A stretch of DNA of 25,005 nucleotides, from positions 1 through 25,005 of IMG/VR virus record IMGVR_UViG_3300042924_003830; one strand, 5' to 3'. This stretch comes from a virus. Below, piece after piece: positions 156-24,557 of this stretch. The notes beneath the pieces were generated by a model. It ran no database searches and was not told where the DNA came from. It saw only the letters and a list, made by a program, of their open reading frames with translations. The translations under genes were made by a program, and so were the position numbers. Position 1 is the stretch's first letter, and each line of letters starts with the position of its first letter.

Positions 156-617
156 TTAGGAGTGAAAGCCGTTGCTAGAAAACGTGTGCATCAATTCCTG
201 CTGTGCCGTCTTGGGTTGCGTGGCAATGTTCTCGACGGCACTGGCCAGCCGCTCGAGCACGCGGTAGATCTCATCCAGCGTCGTGTCAATCGACGCGAGC
301 GATGCTGCGGCAGCCAAAGTTGCTGACGGCTGACTGTCCACAACTGTGGACGATGGCGTTGCGTGCGAGTCCTCATCGTCAAAGGCGGACAGAGATCGCA
401 GATACTCGTCTGCGTCCGCTTTGTGAACCCAGACAGCGCCGCCCTTAAGGTCGCCAACGTGGCGGACCAACTTCACGGCCCGTATAAGTCCAGTCTTTTG
501 CGCTCTTGAAACAGCCTTATAGTCCGTGCTGTTAACGACAAAACCTGACATTCCTACGTAGCCAACCGGCACTTGCGATTCGTCTTGAATGAACGTGGTT
601 GTGTGTCGAGTCTTCAT
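156..617 (-). CDS. Small protein, possible HTH DNA-binding domain plus helical tail
   Basis: A 153-residue protein of unknown family. ATG 617 has AAGGGA about 10 nt upstream. Residues 17-75 have the look of a small excisionase/winged-helix domain: a possible helix-turn-helix around VNSTDYKAVSRAQKTGLI, then a WVHKADADEYLRSL block like the wing and final helix of HTH_17/excisionase-type proteins. Residues 80-110 are Ser/Ala/Asp-rich and probably a linker. Residues 108-145 form a predicted amphipathic helix (TTLDEIYRVLERLASAVENI) that could dimerise. It sits directly upstream of the RecT-like gene. A regulatory or DNA-binding role is inference only. Confidence 0.6.
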   Translation of the reverse strand: MKTRHTTTFIQDESQVPVGYVGMSGFVVNSTDYKAVSRAQKTGLIRAVKLVRHVGDLKGGAVWVHKADADEYLRSLSAFDDEDSHATPSSTVVDSQPSATLAAAASLASIDTTLDEIYRVLERLASAVENIATQPKTAQQELMHTFSSNGFHS

Positions 618-719
618 GCTTCGCGTCCCTTTCTTTCCTTGGTGAAATCCCGCGTCCGCGTCCTGCCTCAGCGGGGCGATCCCTTCCGTGGCTTACCCGG
701 CTCCGCCGGGCTCCGTGTC

Positions 720-944
720 TCAGTGCGTGATGTCGTGAACGCTGACGGCCAGCCATGCGCCGCCCACGTCCACCGTGAGCCGGTCGCCGTCGATCCACTC
801 GACGCGGCCCTGCCACCGGCGGCCTGCGGTGCAGCCACTCACGAAGTCGCCCTCGGCGGGCATGCTCACCGGGCTCGGGGTGTGGTCAGCCATCCCCGCC
901 ACGGCGGCGAGGTACTCGTTCTGATGGGGGTCGGTACTGTACAT
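720..944 (-). CDS. Small early phage protein, unknown function
   Basis: A 74-residue protein, not recognised. ATG 944 is preceded by AAAGGAGCC at good spacing, and a sigma70-like promoter ends about 30 nt further upstream, which supports a real gene. The second half (residues 32-74) alternates charged and hydrophobic residues in a beta-rich pattern, with WQGRVEWIDGDRLTVDVGG as its core. This suggests a small SH3/KOW-like or other all-beta fold. Residues 1-30 look unstructured. It lies in the leftward early cluster. About 100 nt without a visible gene separate it from the next gene. Confidence 0.6.
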   Translation of the reverse strand: MYSTDPHQNEYLAAVAGMADHTPSPVSMPAEGDFVSGCTAGRRWQGRVEWIDGDRLTVDVGGAWLAVSVHDITH

Positions 945-974
945 GTGTTTACTGGCTCCTTTGGGGGTGGCGAA

Positions 975-1002
975 AATGTATTGACGGGTGAACTTCTGTC
1001 AA
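975..1002 (-). promoter_or_regulatory. Sigma70-like early promoter for the 720-944 gene
   Basis: On the - strand a perfect TTGACA (997-1002) is followed after 16 nt by TACATT (975-980). Transcription would begin near 968, giving a leader of about 23 nt that contains the AAAGGAG ribosome site of the gene starting at 944. The -35 box and spacer also hold the split inverted repeat TTGAC...GTCAA, which could be an operator half-site pair. The assignment comes from motif matching only. Confidence 0.5.
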
Positions 1003-1008
1003 GTGGCA

Positions 1009-1026
1009 TAGCGTCGGCGTTAGAAC
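1009..1026 (-). repeat. 18-bp operator-like repeat, copy 1
   Basis: On the - strand the sequence is GTTCTAACGCCGACGCTA. It is identical over 18 bp to 1612-1629. It lies just upstream of the promoter at 975-1002, and its last two bases begin a weak -10-like TATGCC. A repressor or activator site is the simplest reading. Confidence 0.6.
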
Positions 1027-1030
1027 AAAA

Positions 1031-1174
1031 TCAAAAAAAACTGGTGGCTGCGGTCAGGATCATGTCGATTGCGTCGTGGACGAAGCGGGCGAGCGCGGTG
1101 TCGTGGCCGAGGTCTTGGCCCAGGCGGACCAGCACCATCGACTCAAGAGCTCGATCCCAGTTGATGCGTTTCAT
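1031..1174 (-). CDS. 47-residue early protein, unknown function
   Basis: A 47-residue ORF starting at ATG 1174, too short for many gene finders. It is supported by a strong AAAAGGAGG ribosome site with 7 nt spacing, placed in the 22-nt gap after the upstream gene ends at 1197. The product is a predicted pair of helices (MKRINWDRALESMVLVRLGQ, then a helix rich in Ala/His/Asp), ending in FF. No family is recognised. It is probably co-transcribed with the gene at 1197-1556. Confidence 0.55.
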   Translation of the reverse strand: MKRINWDRALESMVLVRLGQDLGHDTALARFVHDAIDMILTAATSFF

Positions 1175-1196
1175 GTTTGCCCTCCTTTTGCGGTTC

Positions 1197-1556
1197 TCAG
1201 CCGTCGATGCCGTGGCGGCACAGTTGCTGGTCGGGGCAGTCGACCGGGGAAAGCCATCCGAGTTGCCCTGCTTCGCAGTCGGCACGTGCGGCTTCGTCAA
1301 CGACGGCACGCACGCGAGCCGGAAGTGCGTCGTACCGTGCGTACAGGTCATCGACGTGGGCCACCGCAGAAGCAAGGCTCGGCTCCCACTTGCCGTTGAT
1401 GCCGCTGGAAGATCCGTATGAAACGCTCGGCGTGACTGCAAACCCCTGCTGCGAATCGCACACACGACCGCTGCCGTGCTTGCTGATGAAGTTCCGAGTG
1501 ATGCGAAAGCCTCGATACAGGAACGTCATTGCGTCGATCTTGGTTGCCTTGGTCAT
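1197..1556 (-). CDS. Early phage protein of 119 residues, unknown function
   Basis: Not recognised. I chose ATG 1556 because a GGGAGA ribosome site lies 6-7 nt upstream, and because promoter P2 (1608-1635) would start transcription near 1600, leaving a normal leader. The frame also opens at ATG 1601, only 6 nt below the -10 box, and would then be leaderless and 15 residues longer. The N-terminal third is beta-like (FLYRGFRITRNFISKHG), followed by a Ser/Gly-rich turn and two predicted helices around residues 65-100. The C-terminus holds three cysteines and a histidine. It leads the 1197/1031 gene pair. Confidence 0.55.
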   Translation of the reverse strand: MTKATKIDAMTFLYRGFRITRNFISKHGSGRVCDSQQGFAVTPSVSYGSSSGINGKWEPSLASAVAHVDDLYARYDALPARVRAVVDEAARADCEAGQLGWLSPVDCPDQQLCRHGIDG

Positions 1557-16315: not shown

Positions 16316-16512
16316 TTCTTGCGTCTCCGCTTGGGCGTGGCGTCGGCCGTCTCCACGTCGTGCTCGACGGCGGCCGTCTCGATCAACTCCTGCTGACGGT
16401 CCTCCACCGCGAACCGCTTGGCGATCAGTTCCGCCGCCAAGCCGCCGGGGATCTCCACGACTTGGCCGGGGCGGTAGGAGCGGAACGATCGCAGCATCTT
16501 CAGTTTCGTCAT
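16312..16512 (-). CDS. 66-residue basic-tailed phage protein, unknown function
   Basis: ATG 16512 overlaps the glycosyltransferase-like gene's TGA (ATGA). The frame is open upstream to 16689, but that part is a shadow. The first 35 residues read like a short beta/helix unit, with KMLRSFRSYRPGQVVEIPGG and AAELIAKRFAVE. This kind of short protein is often found just before connector genes. The end is Lys/Arg-rich (PKRRRKK). Function unknown. It may be a minor head protein or nucleic-acid-binding factor. Confidence 0.6.
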   Translation of the reverse strand: MTKLKMLRSFRSYRPGQVVEIPGGLAAELIAKRFAVEDRQQELIETAAVEHDVETADATPKRRRKK

Positions 16513-17276
16513 TGAGGGACGCTCCATGCAGTTTCGGGCTTCTGCATCGTGTTGCAGTATTCGGTGGCGTGCTGATAGACGGGCTTGCCGAGGTCTTTGC
16601 CGGGCCATGTGAAGACATACTCGCCGTGGCCGATGCACACCCGTGGCGTGACGAATAAGCGGTTTCCGCTTTCTCGCCAGTTGACCCAAAATGCGATGTC
16701 AGCATCTCGCCGTGGCCGCCAGTTCGGATCGCCAGGCGTCTTGGGCTGCTCCTCCCAGGTGCCGTCGCTGTTGGGCAGTTCCTGCATCCACGGCAGTTTG
16801 CACCGCTTCAGGGCGGCCGTGCTCAGGATGGTGCAGCCGAAGTGTGCGGTATCGACTTCCTGCACCGGCTCGGCAAACCATTCCTTCGGCAGCGTGATCT
16901 TGCCGCCCTCGGGCGGGTTGTCGAGCGTGCCCTTCAAGGTCAACATCGGCCTGCCGTCTTCCCGCTTTGTTTGCAGCGGGGCGAGAGCGTCGCACTGGAA
17001 CGTCATGGCCAGGGCGAACAGTTGCTCGAGGTCGTCGCGGCTGAACGCGCTGTCGTAATCAATAACGAGAAGGTACTCGCATTTGTCTACGAACTTCTCG
17101 CAGACCCTTGACAGGCATTGGGACCAAAACGCCCCCTGCATCATTGTGGGCCGAATGCCGAGCGGCATGAGCGCCTGCGCCCATGTGTAGAAGTTCGACA
17201 TAAACCCGAGCCGGGGGACGCTCATCACAGCCTCCACCCGAACGTCTGCCTCAGTACCACCCACGCGGACGATCAT
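16509..17276 (-). CDS. Glycosyltransferase-like protein (GT-A type) in the head module
   Basis: A 255-residue protein with GAGG 6 nt before ATG 17276. The VIDYDSAFSRDDLEQLF block at residues 71-87 is a GT-A style DxD motif followed by the usual helix. It sits after a CLSRVCEKFVDKCEYLL region, and HFGCTILSTAALKRCKLPWM and RDADIAFWVNW follow in the order expected for the acceptor side and second acidic motif of GT2-type enzymes. No signal peptide or membrane segment was seen. It lies directly after the capsid gene and terminator, between capsid and connector genes, so the likely target is a virion protein. Sugar and acceptor are unknown. Confidence 0.65.
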   Translation of the reverse strand: MIVRVGGTEADVRVEAVMSVPRLGFMSNFYTWAQALMPLGIRPTMMQGAFWSQCLSRVCEKFVDKCEYLLVIDYDSAFSRDDLEQLFALAMTFQCDALAPLQTKREDGRPMLTLKGTLDNPPEGGKITLPKEWFAEPVQEVDTAHFGCTILSTAALKRCKLPWMQELPNSDGTWEEQPKTPGDPNWRPRRDADIAFWVNWRESGNRLFVTPRVCIGHGEYVFTWPGKDLGKPVYQHATEYCNTMQKPETAWSVPQ

Positions 17277-17284
17277 GTGCTACC

Positions 17285-17325
17285 TCAAAAAAGAGAGCGG
17301 GCCGCCCCGTAGTGGAGCGGCCCGC
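17285..17325 (-). terminator. Intrinsic terminator after the capsid gene
   Basis: On the - strand GCGGGCCGC (17325-17317) pairs with GCGGCCCGC (17305-17297) around an 11-nt loop. It is followed by CTCTCTTTTTT (17295-17285). This is a strong GC stem plus U-rich tail. It lies between the capsid gene end (17357) and the next ORF start (17276), so it should lower transcription of the connector and tail genes relative to the capsid. Confidence 0.8.
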
Positions 17326-17356
17326 CCAGTTTGCACATCACGTCAAGCCGTCAGGC

Positions 17357-19523: not shown

Positions 19524-20802
19524 CGGTGGAATCCTCCTGTTCGGCTTCATCCTCGGCGTCGTCGGCCGGACTGTCTTGTTCCTCGACGGGCGGCGCTGGC
19601 ATCGGCTCCGGTGCCGGTGCGTCCTGGCCAACCTTGTCGAGCGTGGTCATGTTGAGTTGCACGAAGTGGCGGTCGCCTTCCGGCCCGATGGGATTCAGGT
19701 TTTCCAACTCCCGAATCTCGTTGATGCTCATCCACCCATTCTGAAGGGCAGAGACGTAGTAGGCCGACCGGCTCGCGTGGTCGCCACGCAGCAGGCCCGA
19801 GACGCTGTGCTCGGCGAAGTAGGTCTCATCGTCCACGATGAGGTCGCGCGAGATCGCCGCCTCCCACCGCTTCAGATGAGGCAATAAGCAGTGCTGTACG
19901 AACTCCGTCCCCTGCACCTCAATGTTTGAGTAGGTCGAGCGGGTGAGATCCTGAATCATGTGGGGCGGCACGCGGAACGCCCGGCAGATTTCGATCACTT
20001 GATACTGCCGCGTCTCAAGGAACTGCGCCGCCTCGTTGCTGCCGCTGAGCTCTTTGGCGGAAACGCCCGCAGGGAGGACGGCCGTTCGGAAAGCCCTGTC
20101 GCTGCCCCTGTGCATTCGCTCCCAACTCTCACGTAGGCGCTCGGCAGCGTCTACGGGAATCGGGTTGCTGCTTTCCAAGATCACACCCGGACGGGCACCG
20201 TTGCCGAAGTACGTGGACCCGTGGGCCTCCAACGCCTGGGCCAGCCCGATCGCGTTCTGGAAGATCTTGTACGTGGGGATCGCGCGAATCCCGTCCTCGG
20301 TCGTGAACCGCAGGGCGAAGATCTGGTCTTGGCTGTAGATCGTCTCGCGCCCGCTCGGCTCCCGATACCGATACCGCAGCGTGCCGTCAGAGAGCCGCTC
20401 GACTTCCATGCGGCTGGAGTGCAGCGGCCACAGTTCCGAGACGGCACCTCGAGCACCGGGGCGGATCTCGGCGTAGCTCGCACCGTAGTGCAGGTACATG
20501 CCCGTCATCCAATCCCTGAATTCCTGCGCCGTCTGCCACGGGTTCGGCTGCTGGTGCAGGAGCCGATACACGGGGTGGCTCGTGGCCTTGGCCTTGCCAC
20601 CGTTCGCCATCCGCTCGTAAACGTGGAGCGGCAAAGCGGAGACGGCATCCGAGATCACGCGGATGCAGGCGGTGTAGGCCGAGCAGGCCATGCTGTTGTC
20701 AGCGTTGACGCGGATGCCCGAGGGCGTGCGAGACGGCGAAACCTCTGGCCAGTCGATGCCACGCAGGTCGAACATCCTGAAGTCGGCGGCGTTTTCGCTC
20801 AT
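19513..20802 (-). CDS. Portal protein, HK97 family
   Basis: A 429-residue portal protein forming the dodecameric ring for DNA entry. It has the HK97/PF04860 layout: an N-terminal arm, CSAYTACIRVISDAVSALPL near 35, HPVYRLLHQQPNPWQTAQEF near 75, LHYGASYAEI near 110, and a SNEAAQFLETRQYQVIEICR block followed by FRVPPHMI near 285. The C-terminus is acidic (EDEAEQEDS). ATG 20802 overlaps the terminase TGA (ATGA). Confidence 0.93.
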   Translation of the reverse strand: MSENAADFRMFDLRGIDWPEVSPSRTPSGIRVNADNSMACSAYTACIRVISDAVSALPLHVYERMANGGKAKATSHPVYRLLHQQPNPWQTAQEFRDWMTGMYLHYGASYAEIRPGARGAVSELWPLHSSRMEVERLSDGTLRYRYREPSGRETIYSQDQIFALRFTTEDGIRAIPTYKIFQNAIGLAQALEAHGSTYFGNGARPGVILESSNPIPVDAAERLRESWERMHRGSDRAFRTAVLPAGVSAKELSGSNEAAQFLETRQYQVIEICRAFRVPPHMIQDLTRSTYSNIEVQGTEFVQHCLLPHLKRWEAAISRDLIVDDETYFAEHSVSGLLRGDHASRSAYYVSALQNGWMSINEIRELENLNPIGPEGDRHFVQLNMTTLDKVGQDAPAPEPMPAPPVEEQDSPADDAEDEAEQEDSTDGN

Positions 20803-21863
20803 AACGAGATGATGTCCCAGGATTGTTCGGGTGGCGGGGCCGTGGCCGTCGCGTGGATGCCGAGGGCCATGACCAGCGACACGATGCCGTCGATGCGTTC
20901 CGTGCTCTTCGCCTTACTCGGTTTGATGTTGCCTTGGTGGTCGGTCTGCACCGCTACGTTGCCAGCCATCCACGAGAGCACCGGGTGGTTCGCGTGGCGG
21001 ATCTTCTCCGACAGCACGAGGTTCTCCAGCAGCTTCGCTGGGCTGCTCATGGAGCCGTAGCCCTGCCCGAAGCCTGTCACATTCACCCCCTCGCCTTGCA
21101 GTTGCGTGGCCAATTGGGTGGCGTTCCAGCGGTCGATTCCAACCTGCCGGATGTTGAACCGCTGCGACAGCTCCACGATGTCTCGGCGGATCACGTCGTA
21201 GTCGGTGACGTTGCCATCGGTCGCCCTGATGTACCCGTCGCGAATCCAGCCGATGTAGTCCACCTTGTCCCGCTGCGTCCGCTCGGCCGCGTTCACCTGC
21301 GGCACCCAGAAGAATGGCATCACGTCAAAAGTGCCGTCGTCGGCCTGGCTCACCATCACGAAGGCCGACAAGTCGTAGGTGGTCGCAAGATCGAGGCCCG
21401 CATACCACTCGCGCTTTTCCAGTTCGTCCCGCAGCGGGCCGCCGCACTTGGCCCATGTGTCGGGCGATAGCCATCGGGTGTCTTGCGTGGTCCAGACGTT
21501 GAGCCGGTATCGCAGGAAGGCATTGAGCTTGCTGGGGCTTTGCTCGGCCTCGCGGGCATCGGCCGCGAACGACTCCAGCGTGATCGTCTCGCCCAAGCTC
21601 GGGTTGGCCTGCTTCCATACCGGCTCCTCCTTCCACGTCCCATCGGCCCCGCACTCGGGCGGCGCGGCGTAGATGCACCCGAAGAAGGCCGGGTCCGTGG
21701 TTGGGTCGGCTGTGCATCGCTCGGCGTAGGCGTGCTGCTCCCAGCAGATGCTCTTGCGGTCGTAGCCCGCCGTCGTGATTGAGAGAAGGAGCGGTTGTTT
21801 TCGAGCCGCTCCACCGTACCTGAGTGCATCGCGTGTTTTGCCCAGGCCTTCGCCCCCGGCTTC
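20799..21863 (-). CDS. terL: Large terminase, C-terminal part (motif III and nuclease domain)
   Basis: This is the continuation, in the same frame, of the large terminase after the in-frame TGA at 21864. It begins inside the 51-nt insertion; conserved sequence resumes at DALRYGG (codon 21828-21830), with SITTAGYDRKS (ATPase coupling motif III) shortly after. The C-terminal RNase H-like nuclease has its acidic residues in YAGLDLATTYD, QVGIDRWNA and TERIDGIVSL. No good independent start is visible between the stop and motif III. The first start codon favoured by gene finders (TTG 21596) would drop motif III. Removing the insertion gives about 537 residues, a normal size for the HK97-type enzyme. 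If not recoded, this half is probably not made. Confidence 0.85.
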   Translation of the reverse strand, partial: EAGGEGLGKTRDALRYGGAARKQPLLLSITTAGYDRKSICWEQHAYAERCTADPTTDPAFFGCIYAAPPECGADGTWKEEPVWKQANPSLGETITLESFAADAREAEQSPSKLNAFLRYRLNVWTTQDTRWLSPDTWAKCGGPLRDELEKREWYAGLDLATTYDLSAFVMVSQADDGTFDVMPFFWVPQVNAAERTQRDKVDYIGWIRDGYIRATDGNVTDYDVIRRDIVELSQRFNIRQVGIDRWNATQLATQLQGEGVNVTGFGQGYGSMSSPAKLLENLVLSEKIRHANHPVLSWMAGNVAVQTDHQGNIKPSKAKSTERIDGIVSLVMALGIHATATAPPPEQSWDIISL

Positions 21864-21881
21864 TCAGCCGAGGGCGAAAGC
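21831..21881 (-). other. 51-nt in-frame insertion with RNA hairpin and stop codon in terL
   Basis: The insertion sits between codons for Trp194 (21882-21884) and the Asp that normally follows (21828-21830). Coding-strand order is a 16-nt arm (21881-21866, starting GCTTTCGCCC), a GAGA loop (21865-21862), the matching 16-nt arm (21861-21846), then 15 nt to the junction. All 16 positions pair in RNA, including two G-U pairs. The UGA (21866-21864) spans the last stem base and the loop. GGC (21869-21867) precedes the UGA, and GGC recurs in frame at 21842-21840 and 21848-21846. Insertion length is a multiple of three. The left and right borders are ambiguous by 1 nt because both sides carry G. Confidence 0.9.
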
Positions 21882-22463
21882 CCAGAGGCGACGGTCCCTT
21901 TGCGCATGAAGTTCATCGAACAGCAGGGCGTGGATATTCAGCCCCTCGGCACGGAACGCATCCGCCGAGAGCACCCGATAGAACGAGTTGCTGGCCTTGT
22001 GGATGATCGTCTTCCGGCTGTCGATCACGTCGAAATACTTCGACAACGCAGGCGAGGCCCGCACCATGCTGGCGGCCTCCCTGTATATGATCCCTGCCTG
22101 CTCACGGTCGCTAGCCGCCCCGTAGCACTCAGCACCTTTTTCCCCGTCGAACCCGGTCAGATAGAGTGCCAGCCCGGCAAGTGTGGTGCTCTTGCCTTGC
22201 TTCTTCGGGAGTTCGATGTACCCGATTCGGTGCTGCCGCGTGCCGTCTGGGTTCAGCCGACCGAAGAGCTCACGCAGCACATAGTGCTGCCAGGGCAGGA
22301 GCTTGAACGGCTGGCCCGCGATCTGGCCCTTGCTATGCCGCAGGATGTTCTCGAAGAACCAGACGACGCGCTCGTACTTCTTCTGCCCCTCGGGCGTGAG
22401 TTCACGCGCCGTGGATCTTGAAGAACTCTTCAACTTCGTCGGTTGGCTTTTCTTCTTTGCCAC
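21864..22463 (-). CDS. terL: Large terminase, N-terminal part (Walker A and B)
   Basis: This 199-codon part starts at GTG 22463, overlapping the small-terminase end by 62 nt, with AGGA 11-12 nt upstream. It holds LPWQHYVLRELFGRL near 57, variant Walker A PKKQGKST at 86-93, and Walker B ALLFDELHAQ at 179-188. It ends with five foreign residues and a TGA right after DRRLW. Terminase motors need Walker A, Walker B and motif III in one ATPase core, so this fragment alone should not pump DNA. TGA is used as a normal stop throughout the window, so a genome-wide UGA reassignment is unlikely. Confidence 0.88.
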   Translation of the reverse strand: MAKKKSQPTKLKSSSRSTARELTPEGQKKYERVVWFFENILRHSKGQIAGQPFKLLPWQHYVLRELFGRLNPDGTRQHRIGYIELPKKQGKSTTLAGLALYLTGFDGEKGAECYGAASDREQAGIIYREAASMVRASPALSKYFDVIDSRKTIIHKASNSFYRVLSADAFRAEGLNIHALLFDELHAQRDRRLWAFALG

Positions 22464-23099: not shown

Positions 23100-24194
23100 C
23101 TACATCCGCAGCCTCATCTGACCGACCGCCCGAGCACCCTTGATGCTGTTGCATCGAAAGCAGGCCGTTTGGAGGTTGTGCCTTTCGTGTGGGCCACCAA
23201 GCGACATCGGCACGATATGGTCTATCGTCGGCGACAAGGGATGAATCTTCCCTGTCCTCTTGTTCCACGCTGGTTTATTTAAGCACTTGCGGCCACATAA
23301 CTGGCAGACGTAGCCGTCCTGCGCGTACACGTCCCCAACCGGCACGCTCTCGTAACGCACTCCGTGATGCCTCGCACGCGACCTGTGGTTTCTGCCATAT
23401 CGACGCTTGGCTTCCCGGCGTGACGCTTTAGCTGAGGCCGTGCGGCACTCGCAGCACATTACGCCGTTCGGTCCGCAAGAAACTCCACGGACCACCACCC
23501 TAACGCCGCACTTATTGCAGTTGGCCACGGTTTTGCTTTTTCGCATGCACCGCCTTGAGCAGAACCGCGATGCGCCTTCATTGCATCGCCCGCCACACAA
23601 CTCGCACTTGCGTTCTTGGGATGAGAGGGCCGCCATGCGAGAGAAAAGCCGCTGGCACTTGAACACTTGCTTCCAGCACTTCGCTATATGCCGCATGGCC
23701 ATTACTGACGGGGCTGACGAGTACGGCCCCATCTTGTGCCACGTTGCCTTGAGCTGGTTCGTCCTGTCCCATTTGTGATCGCCTGCATTGCGTGCGTCGT
23801 AGAAGCACCTCTTGCTGCAATACAGGTTTGCGTCGTTGCCGCCATACTTCCGCCTGAACGATTGGCCGCATCGCTTGCAGGTGGGCTTTGGCAGGCGTCT
23901 ACTGGCCTGTGTGCCCCTGCGGCGGCCGCTGCTGTACTCGGCTGAGTAAGCCTTTCTCCAAGCCTTTTGGCAGGCGTCAGCACACTCTGGCGAGCAGCAC
24001 TTGGCCTTGCCGACATTAGCCCCGACATTTGTGAACTGCTTTCCGCAGTTCTTGCAGGTGGCCTGCTCGGTCACCTCGACCCAGCGGCCAGCCTTCCTGG
24101 CCAGATGACGCTGCACCTTGTCGCAGTGCGGGCAGCGCTGGCAATCTCTTCCGGTCGCCGTCTTCCAATCCGAACCACACTTGCGGCATGCCAT
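23100..24194 (-). CDS. HNH endonuclease with multiple zinc-finger modules
   Basis: A 364-residue protein with AAAGGAG before ATG 24194. The C-terminal HNH domain has CQLC at 297-300, DH at 325-326 (TIDHIVPMSLGG), Asn340 and CFRC at 345-348. Before it lie at least five Cys4-like modules: C3/C6 with C21/C24, C47/C50 with C67/C71, C106/C109 with C126/C130, C197/C200 with C212/C216, and C226/C229 with C248/C250. The total is well above 20 cysteines, with basic linkers. HNH enzymes cut DNA. Those beside terminase genes can assist packaging, but this long zinc-rich form is more like a free-standing homing endonuclease with extra DNA-binding fingers. It is followed by terS. Confidence 0.88.
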   Translation of the reverse strand: MACRKCGSDWKTATGRDCQRCPHCDKVQRHLARKAGRWVEVTEQATCKNCGKQFTNVGANVGKAKCCSPECADACQKAWRKAYSAEYSSGRRRGTQASRRLPKPTCKRCGQSFRRKYGGNDANLYCSKRCFYDARNAGDHKWDRTNQLKATWHKMGPYSSAPSVMAMRHIAKCWKQVFKCQRLFSRMAALSSQERKCELCGGRCNEGASRFCSRRCMRKSKTVANCNKCGVRVVVRGVSCGPNGVMCCECRTASAKASRREAKRRYGRNHRSRARHHGVRYESVPVGDVYAQDGYVCQLCGRKCLNKPAWNKRTGKIHPLSPTIDHIVPMSLGGPHERHNLQTACFRCNSIKGARAVGQMRLRM

Positions 24195-24239: not shown

Positions 24240-24557
24240 TCAAACCATTCGTGTGGCCGTCTCTCGCCGCGTCTTCCTACTGTGGCACGACAGGCATCTG
24301 GCCTCGCCATTGCCCACGTCATACCGTTCGCCACCCTGGCTGATAGGCACGACGTGATCGGCGTGCATGCTTCGACCGTGGGCCACGCGCCCGCAGTCCA
24401 CGCATTGCCAGTTGCACTTGTTCAGCACGGCCTGACGCCAAGCCTTGTGGGCCTTCGAGCAGTAGCCTCGTGCCGCTGCGTTGGGCCTGGCTGAGTCGTC
24501 GCGCCTGGGCTGTGTCCTCAGCCTTGGCGGCCTGTGGCTTGGAATCCGTGCTGGCAT
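24240..24557 (-). CDS. Small HNH endonuclease, packaging type
   Basis: A 105-residue protein. The first 30 residues are Pro/Arg-rich. The HNH core includes CVDC at 52-55, MHADHVVPISQGG near 64-76, Asn83 and CLSCHSRKT at 88-96. This compact C..C-HxDH-N-C..C form is like the HK97 gp74 type, which is encoded beside terminase genes and supports cos cleavage and packaging. ATG 24557 is used because GAAGG lies very close upstream. The true start could be a few codons later. It precedes the zinc-rich HNH gene. Confidence 0.85.
   Translation of the reverse strand: MPARIPSHRPPRLRTQPRRDDSARPNAAARGYCSKAHKAWRQAVLNKCNWQCVDCGRVAHGRSMHADHVVPISQGGERYDVGNGEARCLSCHSRKTRRETATRMV

Follow-up and report, generated by a model that had tools for sequence, protein, structure and literature searches.

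Introduction

Efficient translational bypassing in bacteria and phages is represented by essentially one proven case, gene 60 of phage T4, and reviews stress its rarity (PMC5009743). The gap in T4 gene 60 is 50 nt long with a stem-loop at the take-off site, and sliding of the ribosome is processive up to about 56 nt (PMC11194080). A stop codon is located right after the take-off codon, another stem-loop lies upstream on the 5' side, and there is a link to the homing endonuclease mobA (PMC5009743, PMC11194080). In the mitochondria of Magnusiomyces capitatus, short inserts called byps are bypassed at many sites, and their codons are not always perfectly matched (PMC5009743).

Here, we report a 51-nt hairpin insert in the large terminase gene (terL) of a virus. 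Judged from sequence comparisons, it would belong to a family of mobile elements for translational bypassing, with a probability of roughly three in four. These small, apparently mobile hairpin inserts are a previously undescribed family; no description of such elements was found in the open-licence papers searched.

Results

The Interrupted Terminase Gene

The window, the whole stretch of DNA analyzed here (25,005 nt; positions 1 to 25,005 of the IMG/VR record IMGVR_UViG_3300042924_003830), is a fragment of a phage or prophage. It contains an HK97-like gene set, which includes small terminase, portal, S78 prohead protease, capsid, tape measure, and integrase. The integrase gene is located at 2050-2997 on the plus strand and suggests a temperate phage or prophage. 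Two HNH endonuclease genes (23100-24194 and 24240-24557, minus strand) are present upstream of terS. A conserved GGGCGGGCC...GGCCCGCTC hairpin (17295-17327, minus strand) is located directly upstream of a glycosyltransferase-like gene (16509-17276), a name that is a guess, as Pfam gave no match. The hairpin is seen at the equivalent position in many of these phages, and it is probably the terminator or leader structure of this gene. There are no tRNA genes in the window and no clear ones in 37 contig pieces, where one dubious ARAGORN match was obtained (L322).

terL is encoded at 22463-20799 on the minus strand. It is a single TerL frame with a lone internal TGA at 21866-21864. The preliminary description had claimed that only one TGA breaks the frame, between the flanks RRLW and DALRYGG, and translation confirmed this. 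The features are listed below, all on the minus strand.

21882-22463, minus strand: 5' part of terL, ATPase domain with Walker A and Walker B, codons 1-194, ending with ...DRRLW (translation; Pfam TerL_ATPase, E = 5e-16)
21882-21890, minus strand: CGC CTC TGG, invariant 9 nt on the 5' side of the insert in the main site-A family (site-A alignment; third-position diversity)
21882-21884, minus strand: presumed take-off codon TGG (Trp), the final codon 5' of the insert (borders from uninterrupted relatives)
21831-21881, minus strand: bypass-like insert at site A, 51 nt, missing from uninterrupted relatives and 50, 51, or 52 nt long in interrupted ones
21846-21881, minus strand: hairpin with a 16-bp stem and a GAGA tetraloop at 21865-21862 (folding; covariation)
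21864-21866, minus strand: in-frame TGA, which ends ordinary translation (translation)
21834-21840, minus strand: A-rich spacer CAAAACA, from the extended stem to the landing triplet (alignment of site-A inserts)
21831-21833, minus strand: presumed landing triplet, CGC here and AGA, CGA, or TGA in relatives, no match to TGG (comparison of site-A inserts)
20799-21830, minus strand: 3' part of terL with the coupling motif ITTAG plus the nuclease domain; 343 codons, starting with DALRYGG and ending at the stop codon (translation; Pfam TerL_nuclease, E = 7.5e-44)

The exact borders of the insert are set by uninterrupted relatives, in which TGG is directly followed by GAY. The 51-nt hairpin with a 16-bp stem and a GAGA loop had originally been placed at 21881-21831; folding and the uninterrupted relatives proved both coordinates and borders right, and the alignment of terL with relatives, proposed as a check, upheld them. 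The predicted folding energy of the 51 nt is -33.3 kcal/mol (z = -5.1), and none of 200 shuffled sequences was equally stable. The stem is extended to 21 bp (21886-21841) when the exon bases TCTGG (21886-21882) are included, and the exon sequence CTCTGG pairs with the 3' side of the site-A hairpin.

Recurrence at One Codon Joint

The IMG/VR search with the downstream half of TerL as a query yielded 80 close relatives. Twenty of these nearest TerL relatives have an insert, either at the position of the window's insert (site A) or 19 codons upstream (site B). Site A is occupied in 14 relatives; two inserts are identical to that of the window (L002 and L003), and the rest are diverged and 51 or 50 nt in length. 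The six inserts at site B are 50-nt hairpins. The other 60 relatives have no insert, and in the resolved ones RRLW is directly joined to DALRYGG.

The scan with a DNA pattern for the site-A hairpin detected 36 IMG/VR contigs from 33 metagenome datasets, all with the hairpin at one terL codon joint. The joint is maintained even where TerL is only 44% identical to that of the window. The insert in L116 is 52 nt long; together with the 50- and 51-nt inserts elsewhere, all three lengths modulo 3 are thus represented at one joint. The in-frame length of 51 nt is incidental, since the inserts of close relatives at this joint measure 50 or 52 nt. The terL gene of L085 has inserts at both sites A and B.

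A mini-intein-like insert in the Walker A motif of TerL was observed in L116 (2990-3375; KKNGK/ALAIDTPIPTPDGW...THN/S) and in L357 (within 500-1460, minus strand). In both contigs, the hairpin insert and the intein are present in one terL gene.

The 51-nt insert is real and reflects neither misassembly nor decay. Inverted repeats are prone to assembly and sequencing artefacts, but with covarying variants of the site-A element in so many contigs and datasets, the probability of an artefact is negligible. Decay or assembly error, which the preliminary description had considered, can be dismissed in view of the many relatives that are interrupted and yet intact.

Related Hairpins at Other Joints

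Other inserts came to light in an additional pattern scan and when all retrieved loci were scanned for long hairpins. Related inserts can be aligned as one family. They are 39-52 nt in length overall, and those outside the main site-A family are 39-51 nt long. Ten insert families, nine of them in terL, were recognized at eight terL joints (A to H) and one joint in another gene. Families E, G, H, X, and L236 are each represented by one distinct insert. In the following list, the joint is marked by a slash, and the codon directly before the insert is given with the last triplet of the insert.

Site A, main family: RRLW/DALRYGG; 50, 51, or 52 nt; TGG with AGA, CGC, CGA, or TGA
Site A, L236: distinct 39-nt hairpin; TGG with TGG
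Site B: AEG[L]/NIH; 50 nt; CTG with CTG or CTA
Site C: AAD[R]/EQA; CGG with CGA
Site D: FDE[L]/HAQ, adjoining Walker B; 50 nt; CTG with CTG
Site E: PKK[N]/GKST, Walker A; AAT with AAC
Site F: RY[R]/LNVW, nuclease domain; CGG with CGG or CGA
Site G: IEV[P]/KKN; CCG with CCG
Site H: YIE[L]/PKK; CTG with CTG
Site X: GAF[W]/SQ, glycosyltransferase-like gene; 50 nt, TGG with TGG; L121, L354 (3084-3133), and L361

Site X, in three contigs, is the only copy found outside terL. The gene containing it is homologous to 16509-17276 of the window.

The family alignment has the common stem core TTnnGCCC...GGGCnnAA. The stems are 15-23 bp in length and, with few exceptions, begin no more than 6 nt ahead of the insert. 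Changes on both sides were observed in 14 of the 19 pairs. There are 65 double-change cells versus 16.6 in shuffled alignments, and none of 500 shuffles reached 65. When the pairing was slid by one column, the proportion of paired cells fell from 95% to below 60%.

An apparently intergenic repeat in L350 and a candidate in L288 were rejected, as they show no resemblance to the element. In the uninterrupted relative L341 (15724-15765), a long 18-bp hairpin with a 6-nt loop is seen outside terL.

Unreadable Inserts between Selected Gene Halves

Ordinary decoding fails at each of the 41 distinct inserts. A frameshift results from 28 of them, and the other 13, with lengths that are multiples of three, each include a stop codon in frame. 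Ordinary translation ends inside or past the insert in every case. An intein is rejected, as no insert is translatable in frame. Readthrough, which had been supposed to add 17 residues, is contradicted by the 50- and 52-nt versions, which shift the frame.

Both gene halves are open to the normal length and under purifying selection. The median dN/dS ranges from 0.085 to 0.34 across sites, with values at site B possibly inflated by the doubly interrupted L085, and is 0.10 and 0.15 for the two halves at site A.

It is conceivable that palindromic elements knocked out terL in defective phages that are rescued by others. The stops of ordinary translation in or after every insert and the origin of the records from metagenome contigs are consistent with such inactive genes. 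This explanation is nevertheless very unlikely. It is opposed by the low dN/dS, the openness of both sides, the dozens of diverged lineages, the double insert in L085, the exact codon borders, and the synonymous ends described below, and no other decayed genes were noticed in the window. The retention of an intein in two interrupted terL genes (L116 and L357) also argues for live genes. terL genes with such inserts look broken to gene finders but are probably not broken, and this serves as a warning for gene finding.

Codon Match between Take-Off and Insert End

In nine of the ten families, the last triplet of the insert is synonymous with the codon directly before the insert. At other places in the inserts, such matches occur at a base rate of 7%, which gives P of about 6e-10 for nine families out of ten. 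Among the codon pairs around the joints, no pair but that of the take-off codon and the last triplet matches throughout the nine families. All differences within the pairs (CTG/CTA, CGG/CGA, and AAT/AAC) are at the third position and synonymous. Plain target-site duplication would demand neither codon phase nor synonymous-only differences of the extra copy at the third position. The match is the pattern expected if a peptidyl-tRNA leaves one codon and re-pairs on another, by analogy with T4 gene 60 (PMC5009743, PMC11194080).

The main rival explanation is the removal of the insert from mRNA. The insert would be a tiny intron-like hairpin, and an enzyme would join the exons to restore TerL. Exact borders at codon joints, a length free of frame, and a strong hairpin are all in line with RNA removal. 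It requires no codon match at site A and explains the window copy as easily as bypassing does. It fails, however, to explain why the end codons are in phase and synonymous in nine families with third-position differences that are synonymous only, and no Rfam match was found up to an E-value of 0.5. RNA removal is thus considered unlikely. The length of about 50 nt is far below the size of a self-splicing intron. A group I or group II intron was rejected on the same Rfam result and on a length too short for a ribozyme. We infer that the ribosome skips the insert, rather than that the RNA is cut and joined.

The Unmatched Landing Triplet at Site A

In all 17 distinct inserts of the main site-A family, the take-off codon TGG is mismatched with the last triplet. 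The middle base of this triplet is always G, and the third base is A or C, never G or T. It encodes Arg in 15 of the 17 distinct inserts (18 of 21 rows) and is TGA in two inserts, from contigs including L093 and L094. The third-position diversity of the Arg and Leu codons before site A is 0.0-0.07 in interrupted relatives versus 0.5-0.6 in uninterrupted ones.

Three readings of bypassing at site A were compared. The favoured one is an exact hop with a non-cognate landing triplet, because byps tolerate imperfect matches (PMC5009743), the spacer lengths are like those of other families, and CTC TGG looks like coding sequence. The other two use another codon pair; they are variants compatible with bypassing, but both are doubtful. 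One is a hop from the Arg codon CGC two codons earlier to the Arg triplet, so that Leu-Trp is lost. Arg at the last triplet in 15 of 17 inserts and the invariance of CGC in interrupted genes point to this hop, but it would delete two conserved residues and require a gap of 56-58 nt, and TGA breaks the match in two inserts. CTCTGG would also be non-coding, and yet it is invariant while its pairing partners vary. The other is a hop from GCT (Ala) in the insert to Ala of DALRYGG, so that Asp is lost. The codons match in 21 of 21 rows, but the match is trivial, as Ala is conserved regardless, and the lost Asp is a conserved residue. The preliminary description had proposed a hop from GGC to GGC, which does not hold in L030, L084, L093, and L112, where either the TGA after GGC or the GGC in the tail is absent.

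By analogy, the insert in the window would work like T4 gene 60, and its related branches show the codon match. It is not filed as a member of the gene 60 type, because the codon match was tested and not found at this site.

Signs of Mobility

The inserts are scattered on the tree of the nuclease half of TerL, with 39 state changes versus 52 with shuffled labels, although these are rough counts on a quick tree. For sites B, C, D, and F, state changes on the TerL tree are no fewer than random. The scattered distribution and recurrence suggest that the element is apparently mobile.

At site B, no differences are seen in the 30 nt leading up to the insert, the preceding 30 nt differ by 24-34% in most comparisons, and differences resume just after the insert. 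Upstream of the insert, 13 codons show no third-position variation, versus a diversity of 0.28-0.73 in uninterrupted genes. This frozen stretch contains an 8-bp hairpin; either co-transfer or an RNA signal upstream of the insert could account for the invariance. Site A has a short frozen stretch without structure, and its upstream exon shows less structure than that of uninterrupted relatives.

The covariance model run over about 1 Mb indicated one element per phage genome, always in terL, with no intergenic copies. A search for copies elsewhere, suggested in the preliminary description, was successful for other terL joints and for site X in another gene; the hairpin scan and the covariance model revealed no further copies in the same genomes except in the glycosyltransferase-like gene.

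Relatives of the larger HNH gene adjoin terS both in phages with an insert and in phages without one, and on this ground the gene was rejected as a partner endonuclease. No element-specific endonuclease was found among the phages examined.

The nearest and only cellular contig match is a Phycisphaerales MAG with 44% identity. No convincing copy of the element was found in 294 genomes of its phylum, where the one weak match is chance-like and in coding sequence. INPHARED contained no DNA match to the element.

Discussion

A gene-60-like bypass or other recoding at the RNA level, as originally proposed, is strongly supported by the recurrence, the selection, the covariation, and the codon matches in nine families. 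In the proposed mechanism, small non-coding hairpin elements of 39-52 nt would insert exactly between codons, nearly always in terL. The ribosome would translate to the codon before the insert, meet a very stable hairpin starting there, and let go. It would jump over the hairpin and resume once past the final triplet of the insert, which lies 3-11 nt beyond the stem. For the nine families, this triplet would re-pair with the same peptidyl-tRNA, carrying the take-off amino acid. Full TerL would be produced irrespective of the insert length.

It is reasonably probable that such mobile bypass elements are phage counterparts of the mitochondrial byps that parasitise terL at eight or more motif codons across a broad range of aquatic phages, hopping to a synonymous codon, and that the site-A branch evolved an unmatched landing. 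If so, this natural series (Trp, Leu, Arg, Asn, and Pro; 39-52 nt; varied spacers; unmatched variants) would make a comparative system out of what is now a single case, and it would allow tests of the requirements for take-off and landing, of a parasite-like mobility as in introns and inteins, and of why terL is the home of these elements.

Comparison with Known Systems

Group I and II introns and inteins in terL resemble the inserts in their insertion into conserved motifs, patchy distribution, and site-specific recurrence. REP and MITE palindromic repeats are likewise short palindromes found across genomes; a dispersed repeat of this kind was rejected, as there is one copy per genome inside terL and no intergenic copy in about 1 Mb. 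A phage terminase gap described in PMC5009743, compared by its description only, also interrupts a terminase gene, but that gap is much shorter and tied to a UUA codon.

Byps share homologous inserts at several codon joints and in more than one gene. They differ in being mitochondrial, at 81 sites in most genes with relaxed decoding, whereas the elements here are in phage genes, one (rarely two) per genome and nearly always in terL.

Unlike T4 gene 60, the window copy at site A has no matched landing codon, and no stop codon is located directly after take-off, as the first codon of the insert is GCT, GGT, GTT, or GTC. The stem is long (15-23 bp), sites and lengths are many, and no element-specific endonuclease is seen. 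An upstream 5' stem-loop as in T4 is represented by the strong frozen 8-bp hairpin at site B and is plausible at site F, but it is absent at site A. Like T4 gene 60, the inserts are non-coding sequences in a gene for a conserved phage protein, are 50 nt long at sites B, D, and X, and have a stem-loop at take-off, with a UUCG loop at B and in part of D. The gap is unreadable by normal decoding, while both sides encode one protein. The gaps of 39-52 nt lie inside the range of processive sliding, and nine families (A_L236, B to H, and X) have matched take-off and landing codons.
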